Shown here one piece after another: positions 20,758 to 54,603 of a stretch of 64,000 nt of DNA. Made by a program: the position numbers and the translations under genes. Below the pieces are notes generated by a model, which saw only the letters and a program-made list of their open reading frames with translations, made no database searches and had not been told where the DNA came from. The stretch covers positions 2,232,001 through 2,296,000 of the forward strand of contig NZ_AP023420.1 of NCBI RefSeq assembly GCF_018408705.1, written 5' to 3'. Every line of letters starts with the position of its first letter. Position 1 is the first letter of the stretch. Origin of the DNA: Pusillibacter faecalis. Its GTDB lineage: Bacteria > Bacillota > Clostridia > Oscillospirales > Oscillospiraceae.

Positions 20758-20773
20758 GTTAGCAATTACTAAC
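20758..20773. promoter_or_regulatory. GTTAG box A (upstream of ABC pair 1)
   Basis: GTTAGCAATTACTAAC lies 21 bp before the ABC start codon. It is identical to box F at 53337-53352 before the ECF operon and one of eight such boxes in the window. It is probably a repressor site shared by all these operons. Confidence 0.75.
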
Positions 20774-20793
20774 CAAAAGGAGGAATTTATATC

Positions 20794-22536
20794 ATGAAAC
20801 AACAAAGTCCCATGCTCCGTCTGTGGGAGCTGGGAGAGGGACAGCAGGGCGGCTTGAAGCGGGCGGTCCTGTCCGCTGTGGTGGGGGTACTGTTTGGGAT
20901 GCTCCCTTACTTCGCCGCAGCGCAGATCATCCTGGGCCTGCTGAAAGGGGAGGAGAGTACACAATACTACCTGATATGGTGCGCAGTGGCGCTTGTGGGC
21001 TTTTTGCTCCGGGCCACCCTGTATTCCCTGGCCCTGTCCCAATCCCACAAGGCCACCTTTGCTATCCTGAAATCTATCCGGGAGAAAGTGCTGGAGAAAC
21101 TGCCGAAGATGCCTCTGGGTACGATTCTGGACACCTCCAGCGGCCAGATGAAACAGGTCATCGTGGACCAGGTGGAGAGCATGGAGCGGCCTCTGGCCCA
21201 TCTTCTGCCGGAGATGACCGCCAATGTGCTGGGGCCGGTGTGCATCCTGATTTATCTGTTCGTCTTGGACTGGCGGATGGCCCTTTTGAGCCTGGTGTCC
21301 ATCCCGGTGGGCATGGCTTTCATGATGGCGGTGATGGCCGGCTACGGAAAGCAGTACGAGAGCTCGGTCAAAACCACCCAAGCCATGAACAGCGCCATTG
21401 TGGAGTACATCGGCGGCATTGAGGTCATCAAGGCGTTTAACCAGGGCAAGCAGTCCTATGCCCGCTTCTCTGACAGCGTAAAGGCCAACGCCTCCTACTT
21501 CTACCACTGGATGAAGAGCTGCCAGATGCCGGTCTCTTTGGCCCGTGCCATCTCGCCCACCACCATGATCACCATTCTGCCGGTGGGCTGGCTCCTCTAT
21601 ACCGGAGGGAGCTTGCCCATCGAGACCTTTATCACCACCATCGTCCTGTCCCTGGGCATTGCCGGGCCCCTGCTGGCCGCCATGGACTTTGTGGACAGTC
21701 TCGCTAAGGTGGGCACCATCGTGGGCTCGGTGGATGCCATTTTGAACGGAGCGGAGCAGGACCACGGGGAAACGCCGGCGGAGTTCCAGGGCCGGGATAT
21801 TCAGCTCTCCCATGTGTCTTTCGGCTACCATGCAGACAAGGAGGTGCTCCACGATGTATCTCTCACCATCCCCGCCGGGACCATGACCGCCTTTGTAGGG
21901 CCCTCCGGCTCCGGCAAGTCCACCATCGCCAAGCTGATCGCCGGCTTCTGGGATGTGACCTCCGGCTCCATTACTCTGGGCGGGCAGGATCTGAGGCATA
22001 TCCCGTTAAAGCAGCTCTACGACCAGGTGGCCTTTGTATCCCAGGACAACTACCTCTTTGACGAGAGCATACGGGAGAATATCCGCATGGGCCGCCCAGC
22101 GGCCACCGACGCCGAGGTGGAGGCCGTGGCAAAGGCCGCCGGGTGTGACGCCTTTATCCGCAGTCTGGAACACGGCTATGGCACGGTGGTGGGCGGAGGC
22201 GGCGCCCACCTGTCCGGCGGTGAGCGTCAGCGCATCGCCATCGCCCGGGCCATGCTCAAGGACGCGCCTATTGTGGTGCTGGACGAGGCGACCGCCTACA
22301 TAGACCCCGAGAACGAGGCCGTAGTCCAGCAGGCCGTGGGCAGGCTGGTAGCGGGAAAGACCGTGCTGGTCATCGCCCACCGCCTCAGCACCATCACCGG
22401 CGCGGATCAGATCGTGGTAGTCAATGGCGGCCGCATCCAGGATGTGGGCACCCACGGGGAACTTTTGAAAAACTGCCCGCTGTATCAGGAGATGTGGCGG
22501 GCGCATATGGGCGCAAAGGAGGGAGAGCAGGCATGA
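20794..22536 (+). CDS. ABC transporter, fused permease/ATPase (pair 1, first half)
   Basis: This 580-residue half-transporter has a six-helix type IV exporter domain (residues 1-310) and a nucleotide-binding domain with Walker A GPSGSGKST at about 369, signature LSGGERQ at about 473, Walker B VVLDEAT at about 493 and the H-loop AHR. It should pair with the next gene product, whose ATG overlaps its stop (ATGA). Pairs of this kind include drug exporters and the YbtP/YbtQ- and IrtA/IrtB-type siderophore importers; direction cannot be read from the sequence. The GTTAG box upstream and the TetR gene before it suggest two layers of control. Confidence 0.92.
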   Translation: MKQQSPMLRLWELGEGQQGGLKRAVLSAVVGVLFGMLPYFAAAQIILGLLKGEESTQYYLIWCAVALVGFLLRATLYSLALSQSHKATFAILKSIREKVLEKLPKMPLGTILDTSSGQMKQVIVDQVESMERPLAHLLPEMTANVLGPVCILIYLFVLDWRMALLSLVSIPVGMAFMMAVMAGYGKQYESSVKTTQAMNSAIVEYIGGIEVIKAFNQGKQSYARFSDSVKANASYFYHWMKSCQMPVSLARAISPTTMITILPVGWLLYTGGSLPIETFITTIVLSLGIAGPLLAAMDFVDSLAKVGTIVGSVDAILNGAEQDHGETPAEFQGRDIQLSHVSFGYHADKEVLHDVSLTIPAGTMTAFVGPSGSGKSTIAKLIAGFWDVTSGSITLGGQDLRHIPLKQLYDQVAFVSQDNYLFDESIRENIRMGRPAATDAEVEAVAKAAGCDAFIRSLEHGYGTVVGGGGAHLSGGERQRIAIARAMLKDAPIVVLDEATAYIDPENEAVVQQAVGRLVAGKTVLVIAHRLSTITGADQIVVVNGGRIQDVGTHGELLKNCPLYQEMWRAHMGAKEGEQA

Positions 22537-24263
22537 TCGGTGTTTTGAAAAAAATCTGGGACTTTGCCGGAGAGGAGCAGGGCAATATCCGAAAGTCCAT
22601 GATTTTAGGCTTCTTCTACGCGGTGTTCCACATGTTCCAGATCGCGGCCATCTATGTGGTGGTGCTGGCCCTGGTGGGCGGCTCCACAGACTCCGCCCCG
22701 GCATGGCAGGCTCTGGGGCTTCTGCTGGCCAGCATTCTGGGCCGGGCGGTCCTCAACCGCTTCAGCCAGCTCCAGCAGACCCACGCCGGCTACTTTATGG
22801 TGGCGGACAAGCGCATTTCCATCGGTGACAAGCTCAAGCGGGTCCCCATGGGCTATTTCAACGACCAGAGTTTGGGAGAACTCACCGGCATCACCACCAC
22901 CGTTCTGGACGAGGTGGAGAGCACCGGCCCCATGGTGCTGGTCAGTATTCTGGGCGGCCTGATCAATTCCGCCGTCATGCTGCTGTGCGTCCTGTTCTGG
23001 GACTGGCGGATCGGCCTGCTGGCCCTGGCGGGGATGCTGGTATATCTGGCCCTCCTCTCCGGAATGGAGAAGCAGTCCGCCAAGATTGCCCCCAAGCGCC
23101 AGCGGGATGAGGCCCGGCTGGTGGAGGCGGTGCTGGAACAGCTCCAGGGCATGAGTGTCATCAAGTCCTTTAACCTGACGGGAAAGGGTGACAAGCGGGT
23201 GCGGCAGGCGCTGGAGGACAGCAGGGCGAACAATCTGGCGGTGGAGAAGCTGTTCACTCCCTATATCTGGGGCCAGGAGATGGTCCTCCACCTGTTCAGC
23301 GTGCTGATTCTGGCGGCGTCGGTGGGGCTGTGCCTGACGGAAGCCATGTCCCTCGCCAACGCACTGATGGCGGTCATCGTTTCTTTCCTGATTTTTTCCC
23401 AGATCCAGTCCGCGGGCAGCGGCGTGTCCGCCCTGCGTCTGGTGGGCAGCTCCATTGACCACGCCAACCAGGTGGACGACATCCCGGAGATGGATCAGCG
23501 CGGCACGGCCATCCGCCCGGAGAGCCACGAGATTGTATTCGACCATGTGAACTTCTCCTATGGAAGCCGCCCCATCCTCAAGGATGTGTCACTGACTATC
23601 CCAGACCGGACCACCACCGCCATTGTGGGGCCTTCCGGCTCCGGCAAGACCACCCTTTGTAACCTGATCGCCCGGTTTTGGGATGTGGACGGCGGCCGTG
23701 TGACCATTGGTGGCCGGGATGTGCGGGAGTACACACTGGAATCCCTCATGGAGCAGGTGAGCATGGTGTTCCAGCGGGTGTACCTCTTTGCCGACACGGT
23801 GGAGAACAACATCAAGTTCGGCTGCCCGGGCGCTACCCATGAACAGGTGGTGGAGGCCGCAAAAAAGGCGTGCTGCCACGACTTCATCTCTGCCCTGCCG
23901 GATGGATACGGCACGGTAATTGGCGAGGGAGGAGCCACGCTTTCCGGCGGGGAGAAGCAGCGCATCTCCATCGCCCGGTGTCTCCTGAAGGACGCGCCCA
24001 TCGTCATCTTCGATGAGGCCACGGCCAATGTGGACCCCGAGAATGAGGACCAGCTCCAAAAGGCTATGGAAGCCCTGACGCGGGAGAAAACCGTGCTGAT
24101 GATCGCCCACCGGCTCAAGACGGTGCGGGGTGCGGATCAGATTCTGGTGGTAGACCAGGGCCGCGTCGTCCAAAAGGGTACCCACGACGAACTGATCCAG
24201 CAGGCGGGCATCTACCGGAATTTCGTCTCCGAGCGAACGGAGTCCAGCCGCTGGACACTTTGA
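22533..24263 (+). CDS. ABC transporter, fused permease/ATPase (pair 1, second half)
   Basis: This 576-residue partner of the preceding half-transporter has a membrane domain to about residue 300, Walker A at about 366 (GPSGSGKTT), signature LSGGEKQ at about 470, and IVIFDEAT at about 490. Both halves retain complete catalytic motifs. ATG 22533 overlaps the upstream stop by four bases, indicating coupled translation in equal amounts. It ends with residues SSRWTL; a related C-terminal tryptophan motif (ARWKL, AEWKV, AGWSL) is found in the other ABC halves of this window, showing they are one paralogous family. Confidence 0.92.
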   Translation: MIGVLKKIWDFAGEEQGNIRKSMILGFFYAVFHMFQIAAIYVVVLALVGGSTDSAPAWQALGLLLASILGRAVLNRFSQLQQTHAGYFMVADKRISIGDKLKRVPMGYFNDQSLGELTGITTTVLDEVESTGPMVLVSILGGLINSAVMLLCVLFWDWRIGLLALAGMLVYLALLSGMEKQSAKIAPKRQRDEARLVEAVLEQLQGMSVIKSFNLTGKGDKRVRQALEDSRANNLAVEKLFTPYIWGQEMVLHLFSVLILAASVGLCLTEAMSLANALMAVIVSFLIFSQIQSAGSGVSALRLVGSSIDHANQVDDIPEMDQRGTAIRPESHEIVFDHVNFSYGSRPILKDVSLTIPDRTTTAIVGPSGSGKTTLCNLIARFWDVDGGRVTIGGRDVREYTLESLMEQVSMVFQRVYLFADTVENNIKFGCPGATHEQVVEAAKKACCHDFISALPDGYGTVIGEGGATLSGGEKQRISIARCLLKDAPIVIFDEATANVDPENEDQLQKAMEALTREKTVLMIAHRLKTVRGADQILVVDQGRVVQKGTHDELIQQAGIYRNFVSERTESSRWTL

Positions 24264-25414: not shown

Positions 25415-25469
25415 TTGACAGAAGCCGGTGGTTCCGGTATAATTAAATTGAGGTTAGCAATGACTAACC
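25415..25469 (+). promoter_or_regulatory. Consensus promoter with GTTAG box B
   Basis: TTGACA (25415-25420), exactly 17 bp, then TATAAT (25438-25443) form a perfect consensus promoter. The 18-bp dyad GGTTAGCAATGACTAACC (25452-25469) starts 8 bp after the -10, over the expected transcription start. That placement is ideal for repression. It drives the methyltransferase and Cys/His-rich peptide genes. Confidence 0.85.
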
Positions 25470-25494: not shown

Positions 25495-26505
25495 ATGTTC
25501 ACAATCAACAAGTCTGTAAGTGTTTGGGAACAGTTAGTCCAGCTTCCATTTTTAAATCTATATTCCAGATTGCTCAATGCGGCCATGGAGCTGGATGTAT
25601 TTTCTCAACTTTGCCAGCCGGTTACTGCTGAAGCACTGGCAGTTCATATGGGATGGCATAAGGCAAATACAGAATATCTGCTCAGTGCATTGGTATCCAT
25701 CGGCTTTTTAAACAAGACGGACGGCACTTACCAGAACACCGCGGAAGTTGACCGCTATCTGGTCAAAGGGAAAGATGAATATTTGGGAGGCTTTCTGCCC
25801 TTTTATATGCAGGAAGGCATGGCACCTATGGATGTGAAGCTGTTGGTCACAAAAGGCCCCCAGTCCCAGCAACAGGAAGCGATGGAGCAGCAGTTGGATT
25901 TTGCCTCTTTTGCACAGCGGATGCGACAGGCACAGGAAGGTTACCGGCAGCAGGAGTTGTTGCGGATTGTGCGTTCTCTGCCGGAAAATGACCAAATCAG
26001 GCGCGTGCTGGACCTAGGCGGTGCTACAGGACTTTTAGGGCTGGCAGTCATCGGTGATCGGCCGGATCGTACTGGCGTCCTATTTGACCGTTTTCCCCCG
26101 GCGGTGGTGGAAGAATCCATCTCCCTTATGGGACTCACTGACCGCACGGAAGTGATGTGCGGCAACTTTATGGCAGACAGAATTGGAGAGAGGTATGATC
26201 TAATCCTGGCCCTCAATGTGATGCTCTTTGCCAAAGGCCGTATGGAAGAACTGCTGAAAAAGTGCTATGACGCACTGAATCCCGGAGGGGTGCTGCTGGT
26301 TATCAGCGAGGCTATCCTGCCTGACCACACCGGCCCCTGGGATATGGTAATGGGGTATCTGCCGTATTACTTCCAGGGGATGGATATGGGCGTATTAAAA
26401 AACGAAGTATCGGATGCGGCCGTACGCGTGGGCTTTACAAAATGTGAAAAACGCACGGAATGCCTCTGCTCTGGCACACAGGACATTGACATTATTCGGA
26501 AATAA
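25495..26505 (+). CDS. O-methyltransferase-like protein (Methyltransf_2 type)
   Basis: This 336-residue protein has an N-terminal winged-helix dimerisation domain (residues 15-85, with ALAVHMGWHKANTEYLLSALVSIGFL) and a C-terminal Rossmann methyltransferase fold with the SAM motif VLDLGGATGLLGLAV near residue 170 and the late NPGGVLLVISEAILPD. Such enzymes usually methylate hydroxyl groups of small molecules such as secondary metabolites. The substrate is unknown. It is the first gene of a two-gene operon with the Cys/His-rich peptide under the GTTAG box, so it may act on a metallophore or on the peptide. Confidence 0.85.
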   Translation: MFTINKSVSVWEQLVQLPFLNLYSRLLNAAMELDVFSQLCQPVTAEALAVHMGWHKANTEYLLSALVSIGFLNKTDGTYQNTAEVDRYLVKGKDEYLGGFLPFYMQEGMAPMDVKLLVTKGPQSQQQEAMEQQLDFASFAQRMRQAQEGYRQQELLRIVRSLPENDQIRRVLDLGGATGLLGLAVIGDRPDRTGVLFDRFPPAVVEESISLMGLTDRTEVMCGNFMADRIGERYDLILALNVMLFAKGRMEELLKKCYDALNPGGVLLVISEAILPDHTGPWDMVMGYLPYYFQGMDMGVLKNEVSDAAVRVGFTKCEKRTECLCSGTQDIDIIRK

Positions 26506-26907: not shown

Positions 26908-27519
26908 TTACTTCCTGCCGGCCACATAGCACACAGGCAGTACACGCCCCCCGAGCAGGGTGTGTTCCGTCACCCAAAAATCGTGGGAGGAAAGATAAGC
27001 AATGAATTCCCCGGCGTTCCAGGCGTGGTAGACACGAAAGCCGGTCCGCTCCATACCCCAGGTCCGCAGTCTGGCCAATTTTCCACCGGCGTGGACAAAG
27101 GTGGGGGCAAATAACCATCCTCCCGGCTTTAAGACTCTCCGAGCTTCCCGCAAAACCTTTTCCGGCTCCGGTAAGATATGCAGGGCATTGGCAATCACCA
27201 CCGCGTCAAAGGTTTCCGAGGCATACGGCAGACAGGAGGCATCCCGCACTGAGAAATGAAGCCGGGAAGATCCGCTCCGCTTCTTGGCTTCCGCGATCAT
27301 ATTGGAAGAGGCATCGGTGGCCTCCCACAGCCGGACACACGGAGACAGGGGAAAGGACAGCTGGCCTGTGCCGCAGGCCAGTTCCAATACATTCATATCC
27401 CGTGTGAGATGCGGACGAATGTGATTGCAGATTTCTGTATATAACGGTGCAGAGCGCCGCATGAATTTGGTGTAATGTGCGGCCATTCCCTGCCAGAAGT
27501 CCAAGTCTGATTTCTTCAT
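26908..27519 (-). CDS. Class I SAM-dependent methyltransferase
   Basis: This 203-residue methyltransferase has motif I VLELACGTGQLSF at about residues 44-56, a later ASCLPYASETFDAVVIANALH block and VLKPGGWLFAPTF. It is of the UbiE/Methyltransf_11 type; the substrate is unknown. The gene stands alone on the minus strand with its own promoter and a GTTAG box, so it belongs to the same regulon as the neighbouring transporters. It could modify a small molecule carried by those transporters, or detoxify one; neither can be proved from sequence. Confidence 0.85.
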   Translation of the reverse strand: MKKSDLDFWQGMAAHYTKFMRRSAPLYTEICNHIRPHLTRDMNVLELACGTGQLSFPLSPCVRLWEATDASSNMIAEAKKRSGSSRLHFSVRDASCLPYASETFDAVVIANALHILPEPEKVLREARRVLKPGGWLFAPTFVHAGGKLARLRTWGMERTGFRVYHAWNAGEFIAYLSSHDFWVTEHTLLGGRVLPVCYVAGRK

Positions 27520-27539: not shown

Positions 27540-27587
27540 GTTAGTTATTGATAACTAAAGAATACTCCAAAAGTCTCTGTTCCACAA
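27540..27587 (-). promoter_or_regulatory. Promoter with GTTAG box C
   Basis: Read on the minus strand, TTGTGG (27582-27587) and TATTCT (27559-27564) are 17 bp apart. The box GTTAGTTATTGATAAC (27540-27555, plus strand) begins 3 bp after the -10. One arm base deviates from the consensus. Confidence 0.65.
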
Positions 27588-29267: not shown

Positions 29268-29270
29268 GGC

Positions 29271-29834
29271 TTAAAGCTGGCCCACCAGGTCCAAACTGGG
29301 CTTCAGGGTCTCGGCGCCGGGCTGCCACTTCGCCGGGCACACCTCGTCTCCGTGCTCCGCCACGAACTGGCAGGCCTGCACCTTCCGCAGCAGCTCGTCG
29401 GCGTTCCGGCCCACATTGCCGGCGTTGACCTCGTAGGCCACAATTTTTCCCTCGGGGTTGACGATGAAGCTGCCCCGCTCTGCCACGCCGTCGGCTTCGA
29501 TGTAGACCTCAAAATCCTTTGCCAGACAATGCGTGGGATCGGCCAGCATGGGATACTGGATCTTCTGGATACGCTCGGAGGCGTCATGCCACGCCTTATG
29601 GACAAAGTGGGTATCGCAGGAAACTGCGTAGATCTCACAGCCGGCCGCCTGGAACTCGGCGTACTTATTTGCCAGGTCCTCCAGCTCCGTGGGGCACACA
29701 AAGGTGAAGTCGGCGGGATAGAAGAAAAACACGCTCCACTTTCCCAGTACATCCGCCTTGGTAACGGCGTGAAAGGCGTTATTCTGGTAGCACTGGACAG
29801 AGAAATCGGCAATTTCTTTTTGAATCAGGGACAT
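29271..29834 (-). CDS. ahpC: Alkyl hydroperoxide reductase peroxiredoxin subunit
   Basis: This 187-residue typical 2-Cys peroxiredoxin reduces organic peroxides, H2O2 and peroxynitrite. The peroxidatic Cys47 lies in FTFVCPTE and the resolving Cys166 in EVCPAKW. ATG 29834 has GGAGG upstream and gives the normal family length. It forms an operon with the AhpF-like reductase. A strong promoter with a GTTAG box controls it, linking peroxide defence to the same regulator as the transporters, which makes sense if that regulator senses iron. Confidence 0.97.
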   Translation of the reverse strand: MSLIQKEIADFSVQCYQNNAFHAVTKADVLGKWSVFFFYPADFTFVCPTELEDLANKYAEFQAAGCEIYAVSCDTHFVHKAWHDASERIQKIQYPMLADPTHCLAKDFEVYIEADGVAERGSFIVNPEGKIVAYEVNAGNVGRNADELLRKVQACQFVAEHGDEVCPAKWQPGAETLKPSLDLVGQL

Positions 29835-29862: not shown

Positions 29863-29915
29863 GTTAGCAATAACTAACTACTTGAAATTATACAACTTTC
29901 AGAGAGATGCGTCAA
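29863..29915 (-). promoter_or_regulatory. ahpC promoter with GTTAG box D
   Basis: On the minus strand TTGACG (29910-29915), 17 bp, TATAAT (29887-29892). The box GTTAGCAATAACTAAC (29863-29878) begins 8 bp after the -10 and covers the likely start point. Confidence 0.85.
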
Positions 29916-30041: not shown

Positions 30042-30659
30042 ATGGAGGAAAATTCCGCCACCACCCTGGAAAAGATCCAAGAGGCCGCTTTGGCAGAGTT
30101 CCTGAAGAAGGGCTTTTTGGGCGCCTCCCTGCGGCAGATCGTGAAAAATGCCGGTGTCACTACCGGGGCCTTTTACGGCTACTTCTCCAGCAAGGAGGCC
30201 CTGTTCACCGCCATCGTAGAGCCTCACGCTTCTATGCTCATGAGTCGTTTTATGGAGGCCCAGACCACCTTTGCCGATCTGCCTGAAGAGGAACAGCCTA
30301 AGCACATGGGTGTAGAGTCCAGAGACCATGTTGCTTGGATGGTGGGCTATATCTGCCAGCACCGGGAGCCAGTGAAGCTGCTCCTGTGCTGCGCGGAGGG
30401 GACCAGCTATGAGCACTTCGTCCACAACATGGTGGAAGTAGAGGTGGAGTATACCCTCCGGTACATGGGGGTACTACGCCGCATGGGACGGGACATCCCA
30501 CAGATGAGCCGATCCCTGTGCCATATCATCGCCAGCGGGATGTTCAACGCCATCTTCGAGGTGGTCATCCACGATATGCCCTATGAACAGGCCCTGCGGG
30601 ATGTGGAGCAGCTGCAGGCGTTTTATACGGCTGGTTGGTCAAAACTGATGGGGGAATGA
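30042..30659 (+). CDS. TetR-family regulator 2
   Basis: This 205-residue repressor has its helix-turn-helix at about residues 28-50 (SLRQIVKNAGVTTGAFYGYFSSKEALF). ATG 30042 is preferred to GTG 30030 because GTGAGG lies 6 bases upstream. It is related to TetR regulator 1 in sequence, including a shared C-terminal region around VEVEYT-YMGV, and has the same position before an ABC pair. The perfect palindrome over its own promoter suggests autorepression. Confidence 0.9.
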   Translation: MEENSATTLEKIQEAALAEFLKKGFLGASLRQIVKNAGVTTGAFYGYFSSKEALFTAIVEPHASMLMSRFMEAQTTFADLPEEEQPKHMGVESRDHVAWMVGYICQHREPVKLLLCCAEGTSYEHFVHNMVEVEVEYTLRYMGVLRRMGRDIPQMSRSLCHIIASGMFNAIFEVVIHDMPYEQALRDVEQLQAFYTAGWSKLMGE

Positions 30660-30681: not shown

Positions 30682-30697
30682 GTTAGTTTATGCTAAC
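30682..30697. promoter_or_regulatory. GTTAG box E (upstream of ABC pair 2)
   Basis: GTTAGTTTATGCTAAC lies 21 bp before the ABC start, the same distance as box A before ABC pair 1. No clear -35/-10 pair is visible in the 58-bp gap, so the box may also act on read-through from the TetR promoter. Confidence 0.7.
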
Positions 30698-32511: not shown

Positions 32512-32527
32512 GAGAGGGGTGAAGAAG

Positions 32528-45225: not shown

Positions 45226-45289
45226 TGCCACACGCCCCCCTGATATACAGTATTATATAATCAGTAGTAATACAAAAAGGATAGATTAT

Positions 45290-45440
45290 TGCGCGCCCCA
45301 TTCGACAGGCATCCCACTCGGCTGTATTGTACTCTGCGTCAGAGTCTATCAGCAGACAGGTGAAAAAAGAGTGCTTCTCGTAAATTTTTCACCAATTTCG
45401 TCACAGGTCAAGCGACTTATGTGTTTCGACGACAATGCTC
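45290..45440 (-). pseudogene. Decayed fragment of a DtxR/MntR-family gene
   Basis: On the minus strand this reads KIYEKHSFFTCLLIDSDAEY..TAEWDACRMGRAI, which aligns without gaps to KTYEKHCFFTRLLVDAGVEP..TAEQDACRMEHAI of the intact regulator at 46408-46776. An in-frame stop precedes KIYEKH and the N-terminal half is missing. It is the remnant of a second metal-dependent repressor, about 65 percent identical in this stretch by eye. Confidence 0.8.
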
Positions 45441-46295: not shown

Positions 46296-46407
46296 GCAAC
46301 ATCAATACACAAAGCCATGCACCGCAGGGAGGCGGAGGGCATAACCGTACATATGAACAGTTTTCCCGCTCTATCACCCCCAATGGCCTCGACGGATCGG
46401 CCGCCTT

Positions 46408-46776
46408 TTATTTGTCCTTTAGCCCTGATTTTATTTTCTGAAAACTGTCGTCGCTGATTGCGTGCTCCATGCGGCAGGCATCTTGCTCGGCGGTCTTGGG
46501 CTCTACACCTGCATCCACCAGCAGGCGGGTGAAAAAGCAGTGCTTCTCATAGGTTTTTTCAGCAACCTCTCGGCCCACATCTGTCAGGTGCAAGAAAGAG
46601 TCTTCGTCCATAATGAGAAACCCACCCTCTTTCAAAGTAGAGACCGCATGACACACACTGGGTTTCGATACATCAAGATGCCGGGCCACATCTACGGAGC
46701 GTACCATACCTTTCTTCCTCTTTAGGACAAGGATTGCTTCCAGATAGTCTTCGCCAGATGCGTGTAATTGTTTCAT
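46408..46776 (-). CDS. DtxR/MntR-family metal-dependent repressor
   Basis: This 122-residue regulator has a winged helix (residues 10-60, VRSVDVARHLDVSKPSVCHAVSTLKEGG) and the metal-binding dimer domain, without the C-terminal SH3-like domain of DtxR. Likely metal ligands are D10, E13, H79, C101, E104 and H105. Cys at 101 corresponds to the iron-type DtxR Cys102, whereas Asp at 10 corresponds to the MntR Asp8, a mixed set. It is the last gene of the ECF/ABC operon, with GGAGAGGAG upstream. It is the best candidate for the protein that binds the GTTAG boxes. Confidence 0.88.
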   Translation of the reverse strand: MKQLHASGEDYLEAILVLKRKKGMVRSVDVARHLDVSKPSVCHAVSTLKEGGFLIMDEDSFLHLTDVGREVAEKTYEKHCFFTRLLVDAGVEPKTAEQDACRMEHAISDDSFQKIKSGLKDK

Positions 46777-46792
46777 GGGGAGCTCCTCTCCA

Positions 46793-48541
46793 TCAAGACA
46801 GACTCCAACCGGCAGAGTTCATACGGATATGGACGAAATCCTGATAAATACCGGGTTGTTTCATCAACTCCTCATGAGTGCCATGCTGCGAGATCCGTCC
46901 GTCGCTGATGACCAAAATCTGGTCGGCGTTCTGGATGGTGTTCAAACGGTGGGCGATGACCAGCAGGGTCTTACCCTTTACCAGCTCAGAGATGGCCTCC
47001 TGAATGTAGCTCTCGTTGTCGGTGTCCACACTGGCGGTCGCCTCGTCCAAAATGACAATGGGAGCGTCTTTCAGAATGCAGCGGGCGATAGAGATGCGCT
47101 GTTTCTCACCGCCAGAGAGGGTTGCGCCGCCCTCTCCCACCACAGTCTGAAACCCATCGGGCAGAGCCATGATGAAATCGTAGCAGCGGGCTTTTCTTGC
47201 CGCCTCATAGACCTCTTCTTCGGTGGCGTCTGGCTTGCCCATACTGATGTTGTTGTAGATCGTGTCCTGGAAGAGATACACGCGCTGGAAGACCATGCTG
47301 ATGTGATCCATCAACTCTGCGAGGGGGACTTGCCGGGTATCCACACCCCGGATGGCAACACTGCCGCTTTTCACATCCCACAGCCGGGCCAGCAGATTGG
47401 CGATGGTGGACTTCCCGCCGCCGGAGGGACCCACAAGAGCGGTCATGGTATTGGGCGACATAGAGAAACTGATGTGGTGCAGCACCTCCTTGTCCTGGTA
47501 GGCAAAGGCCACATCATGAAACCGCACCTCTGGCTGGCCGGGCTGTGCCTGAGCCGGAATATGCTGTTTCCCTGTGTCCGGGAGCTCCGGCTCATCCAAT
47601 ACAGCCTCAATACGATCCAGGGCGGCGTTCATCACGGTCAGGCGGGACGCCTCGCCATAAAGCGCCTTGAGCGGCCCGAACAGGTCAAAGACGAACAGGA
47701 GAACGCCCAGCACATAGGCCAGAGAAAGGACACCGCTCCGCTCCAGAAAGACCGACAGGCCAAAAATCGCGGCAATCCCAATTCCATAAAGGACATTCAG
47801 CCCCATGGTCCACGGGGTCATCTTCCGCTCAAAGGCGAGGGATGTATTTCTGGACCGCTTGAAATTGTCGGTCAGTTCTTCCGACTTCTCGCCCAGCAGG
47901 TTATAGCTCTTGATGACCCCGATGCCCTCCACAAAGGACAGCACCGCGTCCGTCAGCCGTTCACTCTGCTCCTGGCGGCCAGCGGCTTCCCGCAGGGAAA
48001 CCTTGTTCATCCCTCTGGAAACCAGCCACGCCAGAATGGTCACAAGGGCCGCGATCAGGCCCAGCTGCCAATTCAGATAGAACATGAACGCCAGCAGGAC
48101 CAGGGAGGACAGCAGGTAGCTCATCATGTTGCCCAGCGTGCTCATGGCGACTTCTTCAATGAACACCATATCGGTGCTGAGGACAGAACTGATTTTGCCG
48201 ATATTGCCGGAGGTGAAGTAGCCCATGGGCAGTTTCCGCAGGTGTCCACCCAGCTCCATGCGCTTCCCGGCAAACATCAGGTAGCCCGCCGCACTCTGGA
48301 GGCTGTCGCTGAGATAGTGGACCAGCATCTGCACCAGCACGGCCGCCGCGAGGCCAAGGCCCACATAGAGGCAGGTCTGCCCGGTCAGTGTTCCGGCGGC
48401 AAAGCCGCTCAACACCAAAAAGGCCAGGAAGATCGGCATTTTAGACAGGATCGACTCCACAAACGCGCAGGCAAAAGCGCCCTGAATACGCCCTTTATAT
48501 GGACCGGCAAGTTTCAAAATCCTTGAAAACAGTGCAAACAT
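46793..48541 (-). CDS. ABC transporter, fused permease/ATPase (pair 3, second half)
   Basis: This 582-residue half-transporter has Walker A GPSGGGKST at about 369, signature LSGGEKQ at about 474 and VILDEAT. Its start directly abuts the stop of its partner gene (48542), with AAGGAGGG in the partner's last codons. It ends with AGWSLS, like the other ABC halves in the window. Together with the ECF genes upstream and the DtxR gene downstream it suggests metal or metallophore transport. Confidence 0.92.
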   Translation of the reverse strand: MFALFSRILKLAGPYKGRIQGAFACAFVESILSKMPIFLAFLVLSGFAAGTLTGQTCLYVGLGLAAAVLVQMLVHYLSDSLQSAAGYLMFAGKRMELGGHLRKLPMGYFTSGNIGKISSVLSTDMVFIEEVAMSTLGNMMSYLLSSLVLLAFMFYLNWQLGLIAALVTILAWLVSRGMNKVSLREAAGRQEQSERLTDAVLSFVEGIGVIKSYNLLGEKSEELTDNFKRSRNTSLAFERKMTPWTMGLNVLYGIGIAAIFGLSVFLERSGVLSLAYVLGVLLFVFDLFGPLKALYGEASRLTVMNAALDRIEAVLDEPELPDTGKQHIPAQAQPGQPEVRFHDVAFAYQDKEVLHHISFSMSPNTMTALVGPSGGGKSTIANLLARLWDVKSGSVAIRGVDTRQVPLAELMDHISMVFQRVYLFQDTIYNNISMGKPDATEEEVYEAARKARCYDFIMALPDGFQTVVGEGGATLSGGEKQRISIARCILKDAPIVILDEATASVDTDNESYIQEAISELVKGKTLLVIAHRLNTIQNADQILVISDGRISQHGTHEELMKQPGIYQDFVHIRMNSAGWSLS

Positions 48542-50326
48542 TTAGTTTCCCTCCTTTGCGGTATGTACTTTCCATTCGGCGCTGTCCTGGGCCGCCTTCC
48601 ACAGCTTTTGATATTCCGGGCAGGACTGGATCAGATCCTGATGCTTTCCTGACGCAACCAGTTTGCCGTGGTCTACGACGCAAATTTGATCGGCGTTCAT
48701 AATCGCGGGCAGCTTATGGGCGATGACCACCAGAGTCTTGCCCTTCACCAGCTCCGCAATCGCCGCCTCCATCTTTTCCTCGTTCTCGGGATCGGCGTAG
48801 GCGGTGGCCTCGTCAAGCACCACAATAGGGGCGTCCTTCAGGATGGCACGGGCCAGAGATATGCGCTGGCGCTGACCGCCGGAGAGCATCTTACCCGCAT
48901 CGCCCGCCATGGAGTGAATTCCTTGGGGCAGCTTCTCCAGAAACTCCATGCACTGGGCCTTGCGCGCTGCCTCCAAGACCTCCTCATCGGTAGCGTTCAA
49001 CCGTCCAATGCGGATATTTTCCAGCAGAGAGGTGTTGAACAGGTATTGATCCTGCGCCACATAGGAAATACGGCTGTTCAGGGCTTCCAGGCTCATGTCG
49101 CACAGCTTCTGCCCGCCGATAGAGATGCTGCCTTTCTGCGGGTCATAGTAGTGGATCAGCAGTTTTGCCAGAGTGCTCTTGCCCGAGCCGGACTCTCCCA
49201 CCAGGGCCGTTTTCTGTCCGGCCTTGGCCGTAAAGCTGATGTCGTGGAGTACCTCATCCTCCACCACCATGGGCTTTCCGTCCGGGCCGGGCTGTGTCTT
49301 GGTGTAGCCAAAGGAAACATGGTCATAAACGATGGTATCGTCCTTGCCGTGGAAGCTGTCAGGCGTCTGCTGAAGCTCCGGCGCGTCCAAAACCTGTTCC
49401 AGCGCAGAAATTTTGTAGTTGAGCTGGGGCATGGTGGGCAGGAAACCCAGGGATTTGAGGAGCGGCATCCCGATGCTCAGGGAGAGGCACAGCACCAAAA
49501 TCAGGTCCGGCAGAGCCGACCAGCCGGAGAGGACAAACCACGCCCCCAGCGGCAGGGCCAGGATCACAGTGCAGGGCAAGAGGCTGCTGTAAATTGCCAT
49601 CCAGGGCCACGCTGCCTTGTACCAGGCCAATGTATAATCCCGGTAATCCGAAACATCCTTGCGAAACCGCTCATAGGAGTCCGCGTCCTTGTTGAATACC
49701 TTGACAACCTCCATGCCGTTGATGTACTCAATGATAGTGTTGTTCATCTTCTGGCCGGCCATATAGTAGGGACCCATTTTCTTCATGCCAACCGAGTACA
49801 TGGTCATCATGGCGATCAGGCTGATGGGGATGGAGGCCAGGGACAGCAGCGCCAGCTTCCAGTCCACGAAAAACATAGCCACATAGACCGCGATGGGGAC
49901 CATCAGGTTTGCGATCCCCTCCGGCATAGAGTGGGCCAGCAGGACCTCCAAACTGTCCACATCATCGACAAACAGCTTTTTGACTGTGCCGGTGCCCTTG
50001 TCCTGGATCACGCCCAGGGGCAGCTTCTCAAACCGCTTTTGCAGAGCGGTCCGCAGCCGGAGCAGCGTGTCATAGGCGGCCTTGTGCGAAAGATTGAGCC
50101 CCCAGCCATAGAGAACAGCCTGCAAGACCAGGCACACCAGCACCAAAGCCACCCGCAGGATGAGAAACGAAGCCTCAATTTCCGCTCCCATCACCAGCGG
50201 AGCAATCACCTGGTAGGCCAGCACAAAGGGCAGGACGCCCATCAAAACGCTGACCAGCACCACCGCTGTGGCCGCGTAGAGGCCCTTTTTATGCGGCCCC
50301 GCGTATTCAAATACCTTTTGAAACAT
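48542..50326 (-). CDS. ABC transporter, fused permease/ATPase (pair 3, first half)
   Basis: This 594-residue half-transporter has Walker A GESGSGKST at about 376, signature LSGGQRQ at about 480 and VVLDEAT. The membrane domain has six predicted helices. The start has GGGAGG upstream, 16 bases after the EcfA-type gene. Pairing with the next gene gives a YbtPQ-like heterodimer by analogy. The acidic ligand-contact regions cannot be judged from sequence alone. Confidence 0.92.
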   Translation of the reverse strand: MFQKVFEYAGPHKKGLYAATAVVLVSVLMGVLPFVLAYQVIAPLVMGAEIEASFLILRVALVLVCLVLQAVLYGWGLNLSHKAAYDTLLRLRTALQKRFEKLPLGVIQDKGTGTVKKLFVDDVDSLEVLLAHSMPEGIANLMVPIAVYVAMFFVDWKLALLSLASIPISLIAMMTMYSVGMKKMGPYYMAGQKMNNTIIEYINGMEVVKVFNKDADSYERFRKDVSDYRDYTLAWYKAAWPWMAIYSSLLPCTVILALPLGAWFVLSGWSALPDLILVLCLSLSIGMPLLKSLGFLPTMPQLNYKISALEQVLDAPELQQTPDSFHGKDDTIVYDHVSFGYTKTQPGPDGKPMVVEDEVLHDISFTAKAGQKTALVGESGSGKSTLAKLLIHYYDPQKGSISIGGQKLCDMSLEALNSRISYVAQDQYLFNTSLLENIRIGRLNATDEEVLEAARKAQCMEFLEKLPQGIHSMAGDAGKMLSGGQRQRISLARAILKDAPIVVLDEATAYADPENEEKMEAAIAELVKGKTLVVIAHKLPAIMNADQICVVDHGKLVASGKHQDLIQSCPEYQKLWKAAQDSAEWKVHTAKEGN

Positions 50327-50342
50327 GATTTACAACCTCCCA

Positions 50343-51809
50343 TCAATGAAAATACTGTTCCGACAGAGCTTTCAATATCTGCGGCGTGAGCCGGTGGTTT
50401 TGAACGGCCCCCTGGTCGTCCAGCTGGACCACCTCCGTACAGGTCCGGACGATAAACTCGAAGTCGTGGGAAACCACAAACACGATCACGCCGGAAGCGG
50501 ACAACTGCTCAATCAGCCGGCTGACCCGCACCATGGAGTCATAGTCCAGGCCGCTGGTGGGCTCGTCAAAATAGATCACCGGGCTGTCCTTGACGATGGC
50601 CGCGCCAATGGTGACCCGCTGCTTCTGCCCGCCGGAGAGGGCCGCCGGGTGCTGCTCCCGGTATTCGGACAGCTCCAGCGCCTCCAGCGCGGCGTCCACC
50701 TTCTCTTTGCAGTCCTCCTGAATCCCCAGGGAGAGTTCTTCCTCCACACTGCTGGCAAAGAGCTGGTAATCCGTGTCCTGCATGACCAGATAGGACAGCG
50801 CCCGGCGCTGGCGTGGAGTGAGCTTCCTGCCGTCAAATGTGATCTCGCCGTTCCGCTGCTTCAAGAGGCCGGTCAGGATGGACAAGAGGGTGGTCTTGCC
50901 CGCTCCATTATGGCCCAAGATGCCGATCACATCCCCAGCGTGGGCTTCAAAGCTGACATTCCGAAAGACCTCCTGCTCTTTCGGATAAGCAAAGGAAAGA
51001 CCCTGCACACTCAGCAGGTGTTTCCCCATGGGGCGGCGTTCTTTCTCCTGATAATGCTCTGCATCCCGCTCCGGATATGCAGTCCGCAGCCCATAGGATA
51101 TGCGCGTTTCCTCCGGTAAGGAACAGAACTGCTCCCTTGTAAATTCCTGTTCGATTTTCCCGTTTTGTATGAGAAATACCCGGTCGATTAAATCACGCAG
51201 ATAGTAAAAGCGGTGCTCCACCACAAAGATGGTGTATCCGTCCCGCTTCAATTTTCCCATGATCTCCGCAAGCCGCTTGGTGGCCGCGTAGTCCAAATTT
51301 GCGGAGGGCTCGTCAAAGATATAGACCTTTGGTGAAAGCGCATAGACCGAGCCCACGGCGATCTGCTGCTTCTCTCCGCTGGACAGGGCAAAGATGCTCC
51401 GATTAAGATAATCCGTCAGTTCCAAATCTTTTGCGGCTTTTGCGATACGGTCAATGGTTTCCTCACGGGGGAGGCCCATATTTTCGCAGCCAAAGGCCAG
51501 TTCCCGCGTGGTGTCCGTCATGAAGAACTGGGAGCGCGGGTCTTGAAACACTGTTCCCACCTGTCCGGCCAACTGTGAGGGTTTCATTTCCAGCAGAGAG
51601 CGCCCGTCCATCACAAGGTCGCCCTGTATCTCACCGGGATAAAAGTGCGGGATCAGACCGTTGAGGGAGCGGATCAGCGTGGTCTTGCCACAACCACTTC
51701 GCCCGGTCAGGAGGACAAATTCGCCGGTCTGCACCGTCATATCAATGCCACGGAGGGTAAAGTCCTTGCTCTCCTCATAGCGAAAGCTGAAATTCTGAAA
51801 CGAGATCAT
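50343..51809 (-). CDS. ECF transporter double ATPase (EcfA1-EcfA2 fusion)
   Basis: This 488-residue protein has two complete nucleotide-binding domains. The first has Walker A GRSGCGKT (36-43), signature LSSGEKQ (about 140) and FDEPSANLD. The second has GHNGAGKT (about 298), LSGGQKQ (about 390) and FDEPTSGLD. Most ECF systems use two separate ATPases, but this fused form is common with MptE-type S components. It drives the EcfT/S complex. It follows EcfT by one base. Confidence 0.92.
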   Translation of the reverse strand: MISFQNFSFRYEESKDFTLRGIDMTVQTGEFVLLTGRSGCGKTTLIRSLNGLIPHFYPGEIQGDLVMDGRSLLEMKPSQLAGQVGTVFQDPRSQFFMTDTTRELAFGCENMGLPREETIDRIAKAAKDLELTDYLNRSIFALSSGEKQQIAVGSVYALSPKVYIFDEPSANLDYAATKRLAEIMGKLKRDGYTIFVVEHRFYYLRDLIDRVFLIQNGKIEQEFTREQFCSLPEETRISYGLRTAYPERDAEHYQEKERRPMGKHLLSVQGLSFAYPKEQEVFRNVSFEAHAGDVIGILGHNGAGKTTLLSILTGLLKQRNGEITFDGRKLTPRQRRALSYLVMQDTDYQLFASSVEEELSLGIQEDCKEKVDAALEALELSEYREQHPAALSGGQKQRVTIGAAIVKDSPVIYFDEPTSGLDYDSMVRVSRLIEQLSASGVIVFVVSHDFEFIVRTCTEVVQLDDQGAVQNHRLTPQILKALSEQYFH

Positions 51810-51810
51810 G

Positions 51811-52584
51811 TCACACCCTCCACAAGATGATTTCCCCGATTCGGGTCTGGTCCAGGACCAGCAGCGCCGCCATGAAAAGGATGCCCAGCAGGGACACCAG
51901 GATCTCCGGCCAAGAGAAACGAATGGGGCGCAGGGCGTACCGTTTGCACTCCAGCTCCAGCCCCCGGGTAGTGCCGGAGGCCGCCAGCTCGTCCGTGACC
52001 TTCAGGCACCGCATCAGCAGGGGAATTAAAATATACTCAATGGTGGCAAGAGGATGAGATACCCGTTTCCACAAGGTATCACTGATCCCCCGGATGTCCA
52101 TGGTGCTGCGGATCTGCCGGTATTCGATCCGCAGGGTGGGGATATAGCGGAACATGACCACCAGCGGGATCGTCACCGCCTGGGGAAGCCGCATCCGCTG
52201 GAGTGCTACCATCAGGTCGTCCATGTAGGTAGTCCGCAAAATCCAAAGGCCCATCATCACAATGGGGATCAGCTTCAAAAGCGTCACACCGAACACGCTC
52301 ATAATCACGCTCAATACCGGCACCTGCACATAACGGAGTAAGGCGTTGAGATAGGCGACGATGATGTAGGCCGCAATCATCTTCAAGGCCCACTTTCCCC
52401 CGTTTCCTACGGCGATAAACAGGCCATACACCAGCATGAGCGCGAGGCTGACCACCTCCCCGGCCAAAAAGTAACTGACAAACCCGATACAGACCAAAAG
52501 TAAAATCTTGCAGCGGGGATCTAACAGTGCCGATCCATGAAGGGGCTGCTGTTCAATGATTTGTTTGATTTGTGATTCTTCCAT
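51811..52584 (-). CDS. ecfT: ECF transporter transmembrane protein EcfT
   Basis: This 257-residue membrane protein couples the double ATPase to the S component. It has about five hydrophobic segments and the two coupling-helix motifs with Ala/Ser-x-Gly-type signatures (DIRGISD near residue 165 and AASGTTRGLE near 208). ATG 52584 has AGGGAGG upstream. It lies between the S component and ATPase genes in one operon, with a hairpin before it. Confidence 0.88.
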   Translation of the reverse strand: MEESQIKQIIEQQPLHGSALLDPRCKILLLVCIGFVSYFLAGEVVSLALMLVYGLFIAVGNGGKWALKMIAAYIIVAYLNALLRYVQVPVLSVIMSVFGVTLLKLIPIVMMGLWILRTTYMDDLMVALQRMRLPQAVTIPLVVMFRYIPTLRIEYRQIRSTMDIRGISDTLWKRVSHPLATIEYILIPLLMRCLKVTDELAASGTTRGLELECKRYALRPIRFSWPEILVSLLGILFMAALLVLDQTRIGEIILWRV

Positions 52585-52611
52585 TCCAATGCCTCCCTAT
52601 CCAAATCAAAG

Positions 52612-52637
52612 CGCGGGGCCATTTTCAGCCCCGCGCC
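52612..52637 (-). terminator. Intercistronic hairpin between S component and EcfT
   Basis: The perfect 9-bp stem GCGCGGGGC/GCCCCGCGC has an 8-nt loop, followed on the minus strand by TTTGATTTGG. It probably attenuates the downstream genes or protects the S-component mRNA, giving more substrate-binding subunit. Confidence 0.55.
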
Positions 52638-52699
52638 CTGAGATCAGGCAGCCCGCTTGCCTGCGTTTGTCTGATTGACTGCCGAGGGGCTGTGCCTTG

Positions 52700-53302
52700 T
52701 TATTTGACTGAAACGAGTCCGGCTTTGATAAAGTGCTTCTTCAAAGCCTTCTGCCCAATCACGGCGCCGATCAGTCCACCCACCAGGCCGGCCGCAACGA
52801 TGACCACCAGCATAGGGACGGAGGTGATGTTCAGCATCCCGTCTATGTACTCCTGGGCAATGTTGTTCTTCTCCATGGCGCCCACAAAGGCGCTCTGGAG
52901 GAACTTGATGGGGCAGATGGCGCTGAAGGCAAAAATGGCGCTGAACAGGGCGTAGGCCACGGTCATGGACTTCATGGTGATTTCCTTTCGGCCCATGACC
53001 AGAAAATCGCAGATCACGCCGCCGATCACCAAGCCGATGGGGATAAACCAGAAAGCGCCCACCAGCAGGAACAGGATGGCTTGGATTGCGGAGCAGATAG
53101 TGAACACACCTTTTTTCGGCACCTTAGCCAGTAAGAGCATCATCACGATACCATTGGGAATTGCAACAACAGATGGGTAGAACACATTGGTCACTGGACC
53201 AGCAACACTCATAATGGTGCTGATAATCATGCAGATGATCCACATGAGGGCGGTCAGGACGCCGATCAGGATAAAATCTTTCGCATTCAACTTTTGTTTC
53301 AT
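52700..53302 (-). CDS. ECF transporter S component (MptE/Trep_Strep-like)
   Basis: This 200-residue membrane protein has about six hydrophobic segments and resembles MptE-family (Trep_Strep) S components, which bind the substrate in ECF systems. The N-terminus (MKQKLNAKDFILIGVLTALMW) is typical. The substrate is not established for most members; the DtxR-type regulator, GTTAG box and YbtPQ-like genes in the same operon suggest a metal chelate such as a siderophore or haem. It is the first gene of the operon, with GAGGAGG upstream. Confidence 0.85.
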   Translation of the reverse strand: MKQKLNAKDFILIGVLTALMWIICMIISTIMSVAGPVTNVFYPSVVAIPNGIVMMLLLAKVPKKGVFTICSAIQAILFLLVGAFWFIPIGLVIGGVICDFLVMGRKEITMKSMTVAYALFSAIFAFSAICPIKFLQSAFVGAMEKNNIAQEYIDGMLNITSVPMLVVIVAAGLVGGLIGAVIGQKALKKHFIKAGLVSVK

Positions 53303-53321
53303 GCTTTGCCTCCTCTATACA

Positions 53322-53367
53322 ACAATATGCGTTGAGGTTAGCAATTACTAACCTCAACGCATATTGT
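53322..53367 (-). promoter_or_regulatory. GTTAG box F within a 46-bp palindrome
   Basis: The box GTTAGCAATTACTAAC (53337-53352) is the centre of a perfect inverted repeat with 20-bp arms: left arm 53322-53341 (starts ACAATATGCG), spacer CAATTA, right arm 53348-53367. It lies just upstream of the ECF operon. Transcribed, it would also form a strong hairpin in the 5' untranslated region. Box sequence is identical to box A. Confidence 0.8.
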
Positions 53368-53433
53368 ATCAGTTATGCTTTTCTAATTCGACCCAAAACC
53401 TACCCGTTTTTACCCAAAAGCAGTTGAATGTCA

Positions 53434-54411
53434 CTATTTTGAATTGCTGAAACGGGATGCCCTGTAATTTTTGGGGGCAACACCGTATTTCTTCTTAAAG
53501 GCGGCCGCAAAATTGCTTGGCTTTCCATAACCGACAATCGTGGCGACCTCACCCACATTCCGATCTCCGTCCAGCAGCAGTTGAGCCGCCTGTATCAGGC
53601 GTTGTTCAATGATATATTGATGGATCGGCATACCGTAAAAAGAGGAAAATCCACGCGTCAGTTTGGTAAGGCTCAGATGTACCTGTTGAGACAGTTCTTC
53701 ACAAGAGGGGGCGAAGGCAAGCTGGCTGTCGATGATCCGCTTCGCCTCCATGATGGCGGTCCGCTCTGTCCGGGACATGGAAATATTTTTACCCATCAGA
53801 ATATCCAATTCCAGAACTTCCCCCAGATAGATAGACAGCAGCTCCAACAACTTGCCATCCAAATAGAGGTAGCCCAACCCTCCGCGATATTGAGAAAATT
53901 TGCTTATTTCCGATAGGACCTGCTCCATAACAGGGGTGACAGAAACTTTGGCAATGCCATTTAGGAGTTTCTTTTCGTAAGCCGCAATTTCCTGCCCGTC
54001 AAAGTAATCGGCAAGGAGTTGTGAAAAGTAGGGCGTAGGAATTTTAATGCTTTTGAATGAGAAGTTGCTGTCCTTTTTGTAACAAATATATTCTGTACCA
54101 TCATGTCCGGCATAAATACAAGACTCGTTTTTCTGAATGGCCATAGAGCGATGCCCATTCAAAATACCCCAGGAAATTCCATCGTTCAGGCAGAATATGA
54201 TCTGCATATATTCCTTGCTAACAGGTCCCTGCACATTCATATCAGAGCGATAATTCATCTGCCAGTCTGAAAGAATGACACCATGTTTGATTTTTGTTTG
54301 AGAAACCCGGCCTTGTCCAACCTCTGAAGGAATGTCCATAGTGATTGTCTGAGGGGTATTGGTTATTAAGTCATTATAAAGTTTAGCAAGATATAGATTA
54401 CTATGTGGCAT
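53434..54411 (-). CDS. AraC-family transcriptional regulator
   Basis: This 325-residue regulator has an N-terminal effector domain and a C-terminal AraC double helix-turn-helix (about residues 218-318: APSCEELSQQVHLSLTKLTRGFSSFYGMPIHQYI, then NVGEVATIVGYGKPSNFAAAFKKKYGVAPKNYR). It resembles YbtA-type regulators that activate siderophore transport genes on binding the siderophore. It is upstream of the ECF/ABC operon and under its own GTTAG box, so it should be made only when the repressor is inactive, then activate uptake genes. Confidence 0.9.
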   Translation of the reverse strand: MPHSNLYLAKLYNDLITNTPQTITMDIPSEVGQGRVSQTKIKHGVILSDWQMNYRSDMNVQGPVSKEYMQIIFCLNDGISWGILNGHRSMAIQKNESCIYAGHDGTEYICYKKDSNFSFKSIKIPTPYFSQLLADYFDGQEIAAYEKKLLNGIAKVSVTPVMEQVLSEISKFSQYRGGLGYLYLDGKLLELLSIYLGEVLELDILMGKNISMSRTERTAIMEAKRIIDSQLAFAPSCEELSQQVHLSLTKLTRGFSSFYGMPIHQYIIEQRLIQAAQLLLDGDRNVGEVATIVGYGKPSNFAAAFKKKYGVAPKNYRASRFSNSK

Positions 54412-54437
54412 AAGCCACCCCTTTCTAACCCACCATA

Positions 54438-54485
54438 GTTAGTGCCTGCTAATCTAATAATACTTGATTTTTTCTTGATGGTCAA
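54438..54485 (-). promoter_or_regulatory. araC promoter with GTTAG box G
   Basis: On the minus strand TTGACC (54480-54485), 17 bp, TATTAT (54457-54462). The box GTTAGTGCCTGCTAAT (54438-54453) starts 3 bp after the -10. One base of the arm deviates. Confidence 0.75.
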
Positions 54486-54552
54486 GAGAACTTCACACCA
54501 CGATGTTGTTGTATATTTTGCTCAAATCTGAATTGGTGATATCGGCATAGTA

Positions 54553-54603
54553 TTGACGTACTGCCAGAATTATGTTATACTAAAAAAGTTAGCAGACGCT
54601 AAC
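54553..54603 (+). promoter_or_regulatory. Promoter with GTTAG box H
   Basis: TTGACG (54553-54558), 17 bp, TATACT (54576-54581). The box GTTAGCAGACGCTAAC (54588-54603) covers the expected start. It faces away from the araC promoter and no protein gene follows. Confidence 0.8.

Follow-up and report, generated by a model that had tools for sequence, protein, structure and literature searches.

The closest described counterpart of the system analysed here is EqbA of the horse bacterium Streptococcus equi. EqbA is reported to be a short DtxR-like repressor encoded on ICESe2, with the DtxR-type cysteine and no SH3 domain; it needs a 36-bp palindrome to bind its promoter fragment, Fe2+, Zn2+ and in part Mn2+ influence this binding, and deletion of eqbA raises the eqbE transcript 13-fold (PMC3672683). 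A mobile island of Clostridium difficile is described as carrying a cluster like that for equibactin, with a gene of the DtxR type (PMC6814731). The classical DtxR/IdeR operator is given as the 19-mer TTAGGTTAG(G/C)CTAACCTAA (PMC1382209), a single IdeR dimer is able to occupy half a site (PMC8464063), and MtsR of Streptococcus pyogenes regulates genes of the sia operon (PMC6593403). Here we analyse a stretch of 64,000 nucleotides of the Pusillibacter faecalis genome (NZ_AP023420.1, 2,232,001 to 2,296,000; named the window), in which the palindromic box GTTAG-N6-CTAAC recurs upstream of transporter and regulator genes. Judged by its sequence context, this box (extended form R-GTTAGY-N4-RCTAAC-Y) is very probably an operator for EqbA-like repressors, metal-activated members of the DtxR family without SH3, that bind it as one dimer.

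Both known operators contain the core of the box. The published EqbA palindrome (eqbB operator) holds GTTAGATGTATCTAAC at its centre (positions 11-26), and its flanking arms are paired at 10/10 positions. In the DtxR/IdeR 19-mer, TTAG-N6-CTAA starts at position 1 and again at position 6, giving two units offset by 5 bp. The box thus corresponds to one such DtxR unit, and from this arithmetic we infer the published half-site to be identical with it. An initial annotation of the window had stated that the spacing differs from that of DtxR/IdeR boxes, which is wrong: the spacing is the same, and the second unit alone is missing. Among 170 non-redundant sites, drawn from loci that were often chosen for holding a box or a DtxR gene, none carries a second unit at offset 5, as a 19-bp tandem operator would. 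A second unit within 40 nt was found at 22/170 sites, lying at 30-36 bp in 21 of them and at 4 bp in one.

Six exact boxes were identified in the window (20758, 25453, 29863, 30682, 53337 and 54588; shuffled sequences give a mean of 0.04 and a maximum of 1). Two boxes with one mismatch, at 27540 and 54438, raise the number with at most one mismatch to eight (shuffled mean 0.73, maximum 5), and all eight positions of the initial annotation are thus borne out. Sites with two mismatches (12 in the window, 12.9 expected) are at chance level and were discarded. The genome-wide scan that the annotation had proposed as a check gave 26 exact matches in 3.41 Mb, against 1 for the reversed pattern used as control, so that a regulon of eight sites is too small. 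Thirteen of the exact sites lie at 481-577 kb and 5 at 817-861 kb; the window holds 6, and single sites lie at 2194 kb and 2370 kb. Allowing one mismatch brings no gain over the control (47 boxes vs 59 control hits), and lone one-mismatch sites therefore carry no weight unless their position supports them.

The genes behind these sites fit an iron gene set. A whole-genome search with FeoB_N gave three strong matches (190-227 bits), each preceded by an exact box, at 817873 (feoAB), 860264 and 557601; 11 other matches, at no more than 52 bits, are probably other GTPases. The box at 860851 stands between feoA (about 860348-860557, by BLAST) and dtxR-861, a flavodoxin carries tandem boxes (857082/857140), and a ZIP transporter is boxed at 551886. 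Further boxes belong to ATP-binding cassette (ABC) pairs beside AraC or TetR genes, to energy-coupling factor (ECF) modules and to AhpC/F. With boxes at three feoB genes, a flavodoxin, AhpC and transporter operons, the earlier proposal of a real regulon with an iron gene set holds. These targets are of the kind controlled by Fur, and Fur-family genes occur in 34/38 good genomes, the present one included; however, no exact box comes within 300 kb of either Fur-family gene found here (1183267 and 1871368), and the box is unlike the Fur box. Control of the box by a Fur-family protein is thus rejected as scarcely credible.

The position of the boxes relative to promoters is that of a classic repressor site, as had been claimed. 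By pattern scan, five boxes of the window begin 3-9 bp downstream of a -10 element with a 17-bp spacer to its -35 element; four of these promoters are good and one is weak. The exact box at 25453..25468 (plus strand) lies 9 bp 3' of TTGACA-17-TATAAT, that at 29863..29878 (minus strand) 8 bp 3' of TTGACG-17-TATAAT, and that at 54588..54603 (plus strand) 6 bp 3' of TTGACG-17-TATACT. The one-mismatch boxes at 54438..54453 and 27540..27555 (both minus strand) each lie 3 bp 3' of a promoter, TTGACC-17-TATTAT and TTGTGG-17-TATTCT, respectively, the latter being the weakest of the five. A further exact box, at C1:568919 (L029 13919), follows a plus-strand promoter of perfect sequence, TTGACA-17-TATAAT, at a distance of 3 bp; it points away from a gene for a 1288-aa CoA-activase-like protein, and the next called plus-strand gene lies about 840 bp on.

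Three promoter architectures were distinguished over the sites collected from the same, often selected loci, which give 159 oriented readings, a site being counted twice if it has start codons on both sides (e.g. L256). A rule divides these readings into 67 of architecture I, 35 of II, 15 of III (from 14 sites) and 42 unassigned. Architecture I, a -35/-10 pair whose -10 element ends 1-16 bp before the box, was detected in 80/159 readings (mean 18.0 and maximum 30 in controls that, for promoters and terminators alike, shuffle single bases). In architecture II, the box is read as filling a 16-17-bp spacer, its own TAAC starting the -10 element. A TTG 10 or 11 bp before the box, as this arrangement would place it, occurs in 25/159 readings, 7 of which fit architecture I as well. 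Where a start codon lies within 45 bp (88 readings), 18 have TTG 10 or 11 bp before the box, and each offset from -34 to -12 accounts for 0-4; in this set TTG is enriched at offsets -5 and -3 as well. TT directly after the box is weakly favoured in architecture II (6/25 vs 18/134). Two window boxes read as architecture II. At 30682..30697 (plus strand) the exact box would lie within the spacer of TTGGAA-16-TAACTT, and at 20758..20773 (plus strand) the exact box, located between a G+C-rich upstream hairpin and the ribosome-binding site of ABC pair 1, can be read with TTGTAC-16-TAACCA, a poor -10 element that overlaps it.

In architecture III the box occupies the tip of a long hairpin. Most boxes do not have this longer palindrome; at least six perfect extra pairs were found at 11/170 sites, a count that is the unselected test of the arms (mean 0.26, maximum 3 in 2000 permutations). 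The window example is the exact box at 53337..53352 (minus strand), which follows TCGAAT-17-TACAAT with a gap of 10 bp and stands at the tip of a 21-pair hairpin (53322..53367, minus strand, z -11.0). The outer arm of this hairpin overlaps the predicted -10 hexamer (53363-53368), and therefore, if that -10 element is right, the whole arm cannot lie in the operon's own transcript. For covariation, 25 rows (24 distinct) were aligned that had been picked for visible arms, and their 96.9% pairing is conditional on that choice. Within the 24 distinct selected rows the arms covary, with 93 cells changed on both sides vs 25.9 in shuffles and a score of 0.746 vs 0.204, which is lost when the register is slid. 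The number of pairs with a change on both sides is unremarkable (10 vs 9.4, reached by 261/500 shuffles), and that of further pair types does not stand out (29 vs 25.6, reached by 37/500).

A terminator-like hairpin with a T-tract occurs within 75 nt upstream in 35/159 readings (shuffled mean 3.0, maximum 8). Such a separate upstream terminator accompanies 28/35 class II and 7/67 class I readings and 0/15 of class III; a co-directional gene lies just upstream in 21/35, 31/67 and 11/15, respectively. The class III hairpins may thus insulate their operon from the upstream co-directional gene. As a tentative extension that we ourselves consider unlikely, the same 36-46 bp could form a composite element, in which the palindrome is a DtxR operator overlapping the -10 element and the long hairpin, often with a T-tract, stops read-through, insulating tandem, horizontally moving iron operons under iron control; what gut Clostridia and the streptococcal eqb element have conserved would then be the pairing of the arms and not their sequence. 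A literature search for overlapping terminators and operators found nothing. Alternatively, the arms may be functionless products of quasi-palindrome correction during replication, a serious explanation though one we lean against. Their reach into predicted untranscribed -10 regions at 53337, L242 and L246 speaks for it, whereas the restriction of long perfect arms to that minority of sites, many of them in transporter operons, and the fully paired arms of the EqbA operator speak against it.

The box is also conserved outside P. faecalis. In 59 relatives 207 boxes were counted vs 86 control hits, or 194 vs 45 without G026 and G034, which have high control counts; boxes exceed control hits in 40 relatives and equal them in 9. 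The surroundings of the boxes were read in seven relatives. Boxes precede feoA/feoB in G008, G013, G018, G020, G024 and G043 and a feoB in G052; flavodoxin carries paired boxes in G013, G018, G020, G024 and G043, and zip, ABC pairs and AraC are boxed in single cases. Tandem boxes 54-60 bp apart occur in G000, G043, G020, G013, G018 and G024, one partner being mismatched in G018 and G024. The 37 relatives with one PF02742 hit hold 141 boxes vs 36 control hits (summed from lists), and over all 59 the number of boxes correlates with that of DtxR proteins (Spearman 0.37, p 0.004).

The operon behind the box at 53337 ends with a gene for a DtxR/MntR-family repressor of 122 aa (46408..46776, minus strand), in agreement with the initial annotation. 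The protein matches PF01325 (Fe_dep_repress winged helix-turn-helix, 40.3 bits, cut-off 26) and PF02742 (metal-binding/dimerisation domain, 50.0 bits, cut-off 27), and it ends after PF02742, no C-terminal SH3 domain being detected. The alignment places D10, E13, H79, C101, E104 and H105, with C101 within a DACRMEH motif, and its recognition helix reads S37-K-P39-S40-V-C-H43. The metal ligands combine MntR-like D10 and E13 (at the places of MntR D8 and E11) with DtxR-like C101, E104 and H105, and a Cys-x-x-Glu-His motif is common to DtxR and this protein. A protein-database search with the repressor returned at least 7997 relatives. Nine PF02742 proteins are encoded in the genome; four more copies of the window type, 72-81% identical, lie in the 475-590 kb region, and a decayed copy is present in the window (45287..45388, minus strand, about 1 kb from the intact gene). 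A profile of ten DtxR-like proteins of the genome has 2h09 and 1on1 (MntR) as its best solved-structure matches. Besides these nine, a DtxR-like protein follows feoB and a Cys-rich small frame at C1:857458-857805 (L032 9458-9802, minus strand); it keeps the winged helix-turn-helix, its DtxR metal residues are altered, and a relative of it follows feoB in G013, G018 and G024.

The window-type DtxR was found in 310 stretches of named genomes, of which the best 80 gave 74 partly overlapping loci. An exact box is present in 62/74 of these loci. When the spacer between the half-sites was varied, a length of 6 gave 110 hits (84 distinct contexts), a length of 10 gave 2 and the other 14 lengths gave 0, and 28 of 29 permuted half-sites gave 0-7 hits. 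The remaining one, ATGTG-N6-CACAT (41 hits), is an artefact, all hits lying within the dtxR coding sequence. An exact or one-mismatch box is located 5-130 bp upstream of 60/70 ECF_S starts (49 exact), 27/46 ABC_A1 starts, 16/28 ABC_B1 starts and 2/35 TetR starts in these loci, and of none of the 248 starts of internal genes (0/102 ECF_ATP, 0/59 ABC_A2, 0/87 DtxR). The box is thus restricted to first genes. Furthermore, the ECF-ABC-DtxR operon of the window recurs elsewhere: records of Enterocloster, Bittarella, Eisenbergiella and Diplocloster match 46351-54486 at 93.5-94.4% identity, and Clostridiales bacterium CCNA10 matches 46300-54950 at 97.6%. Such likeness across genera points to recent horizontal transfer.

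AraC or TetR genes adjoin many boxes, and one of these regulators might read the box with DtxR as a passenger. We consider this very unlikely, since no AraC/TetR reference match lies beside the box at the feoAB and flavodoxin loci of the relatives, since the symmetric 5-6-5 palindrome with its TTAG/CTAA core fits DtxR units and the EqbA operator, and since AraC genes are themselves boxed, at 39/78 starts with at most one mismatch (16 exact).

Several observations weigh against one-dimer control of the box by EqbA-kind DtxR proteins. The window protein falls below the NCBIfam cut-offs for the MntR and DtxR equivalogs (for MntR, 81.9 of 153 and 61.4 of 138 bits), and its likeness to EqbA is one of described features and operator. 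Boxes are fewer than control hits in 10/59 relatives, and the correlation with DtxR count falls to 0.24 (p 0.15) over the 37 relatives that are at least 90% complete. Boxes also outnumber control hits (29 vs 9, summed) in the 15 relatives that lack a PF02742 hit; a more sensitive search, tried in 6 of these 15, found no convincing DtxR in G008, G043 and G052, which are at least 95% complete and have 4, 7 and 5 boxes. These three are assemblies of 50-160 contigs, and assembly gaps, the sole explanation we can offer, possibly account for the missing DtxR. In the loci read, no box adjoins the common C2-type dtxR. Finally, the inner-base class C-T/A-G (GTTAGC-N4-TCTAAC or its complement) makes up 22/56 window-type sites vs 12/98 sites elsewhere (Fisher p 0.0002), and the box at 53337 itself is outside this class. 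The paralogues may therefore not be interchangeable, and the bias hints at an operator preference among them. An asymmetry of positions 6 and 11 (C-A or T-G), striking in this genome, proved not to be general.

These points bear on which DtxR protein acts. The initial annotation had named the 122-residue repressor as the probable controller. DtxR-family control of the box is supported, but this protein as the controller is not, given nine DtxR proteins in the genome, the excess of boxes in relatives with one PF02742 hit and 36/37 helices of other types in relatives (49 DtxR loci, 37 with a readable recognition helix, types assigned by eye from alignment and helix motif; the single window type is in G024). 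It is conceivable, if rather doubtful, that one chromosomal DtxR, of the 861 type or the common C2 type, is the master, with the window copy serving a target that differs somewhat or having no target at all. Besides those helices and the different inner-base class of window-type loci, the boxed region shared by 861-type dtxR and feoA in this genome and on a G020 contig fits such a master. Against it, the window type travels with boxed operons, as its named loci show, and the flanking purine/pyrimidine is alike in window-type loci and elsewhere apart from slight deviations (position 0, uncorrected p 0.02; position 8, uncorrected p 0.04). The simplest reading is that several of the nine paralogues share one operator and differ to some degree in their preference.

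The sites, with their promoter positions, gene set, conservation and first-gene restriction, are direct readings of the DNA; one dimer per box and iron as the signal are proposed, and the cycle would run as follows. With enough Fe2+, for which Mn2+ or Zn2+ might substitute, a repressor dimer would bind the box, which covers the -10 element or lies immediately 3' of it, and block the promoter. When iron falls, feoAB, flavodoxin, the transporter operons, AhpC/F and AraC would open. The window repressor would bind the box before its own operon, giving feedback.

The open reading frame caller mis-called some genes (e.g. 547745-550525, on the wrong strand), and gene assignments therefore rest on Pfam or BLAST where cited. 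On the plus strand of the window, the box at 20758 precedes ABC pair 1 (two genes of fused permease/ATPase, 20794..24263, with a family match for 20794-22536 only) and that at 25453 precedes an O-methyltransferase (25495..26505, PF00891 and PF08100). A TetR-family regulator (30042..30659, Pfam) lies upstream of putative ABC pair 2 (30718..34279, genes 30718-32511 and 32528-34279; BLAST references against relatives), which follows the box at 30682. On the minus strand, a methyltransferase (26908..27519, PF08241) follows the box at 27540, and AhpC (29271..29834) with an AhpF-like reductase (27648-29267) follows that at 29863, NCBIfam confirming both AhpC, as previously assigned, and its partner. 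The operon of 53337, also on the minus strand, comprises an ECF module (50343..53302) made of an S component (52700-53302, Trep_Strep/MptD by family searches), a CbiQ-like T component (51811-52584) and an ATPase (50343-51809), then ABC pair 3 (46793..50326, genes 46793-48541 and 48542-50326; NCBIfam) and, last, the repressor gene, with intergenic gaps of 115, 1, 16, 0 and 16 bp. An AraC-family regulator (53434..54411, minus strand, Pfam) follows the box at 54438. At the window end, a Fic-domain protein (58955-60130) and a DarA_C-type protein (61336-61773, PF18789) hint at a mobile element.

A small RNA had been assigned to the box at 54588, and this assignment is weak. The box has its good promoter and only short open frames downstream, and the same bases form a hairpin with a T-tract on the minus strand. 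A speculative untranslated transcript (54604..54860, plus strand) would end at a hairpin, and the RNA fold behind the box is better than in shuffles (z -3.1). No Rfam match was found in the window. The region is 99% conserved, with its box, in CCNA10; a partial match (70%) without a box was found in a Flavonifractor record and in one of 294 other order genomes, possibly the same organism. Among the records searched, the transcribed part behind the box thus occurs in one near-identical record alone, and a small RNA here is possible but not supported.

Compared with known systems, the window is closest to EqbA. Both have an SH3-less DtxR-like repressor with the DtxR-type cysteine (C101 here) and an operator with the GTTAG-N6-CTAAC core, in the plan 10+16+10 that 53337 repeats; in both, YbtPQ-like ABC genes are neighbours and the carrier is a mobile element. 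The eqb system has one operator and a siderophore synthesis cluster, whereas here there are 26 exact sites, ECF modules and nine paralogues. DtxR/IdeR share the TTAG-N6-CTAA unit and S37 and P39 of the recognition helix; in contrast, they have an SH3 domain and a tandem operator typically bound by two dimers, and their T40 and Q43 are replaced by S40 and H43. MntR of B. subtilis and E. coli has the same two-domain architecture and D and E at the D8/E11 places, but in the window protein C101 replaces the Mn-type Glu, the gene set is one of iron, and the scores are below the NCBIfam cut-offs. The likeness to MtsR is one of gene lists, a DtxR-family repressor over a heme ABC, a further ABC and ECF A/T/S components. 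In open-licence PMC papers, with subscription papers and RegPrecise outside the scope of the search, no printed GTTAG-N6-CTAAC regulon was found. The core of the operator has been published before, for a single Streptococcus site; the breadth of the regulon, the many paralogues, the spread between genera, the hairpin-embedded operator and the three promoter architectures are new. As a simple motif that can be searched for, the box provides an operator of iron control across a large gut Firmicutes group, and it makes iron regulation in commensals, together with cross-talk between as many as nine DtxR paralogues, directly testable. Collectively, closely similar repressor-plus-transporter operons of different genera carry the same operator, and the box links the metal-dependent operator tested in S. 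equi to the classical DtxR box.

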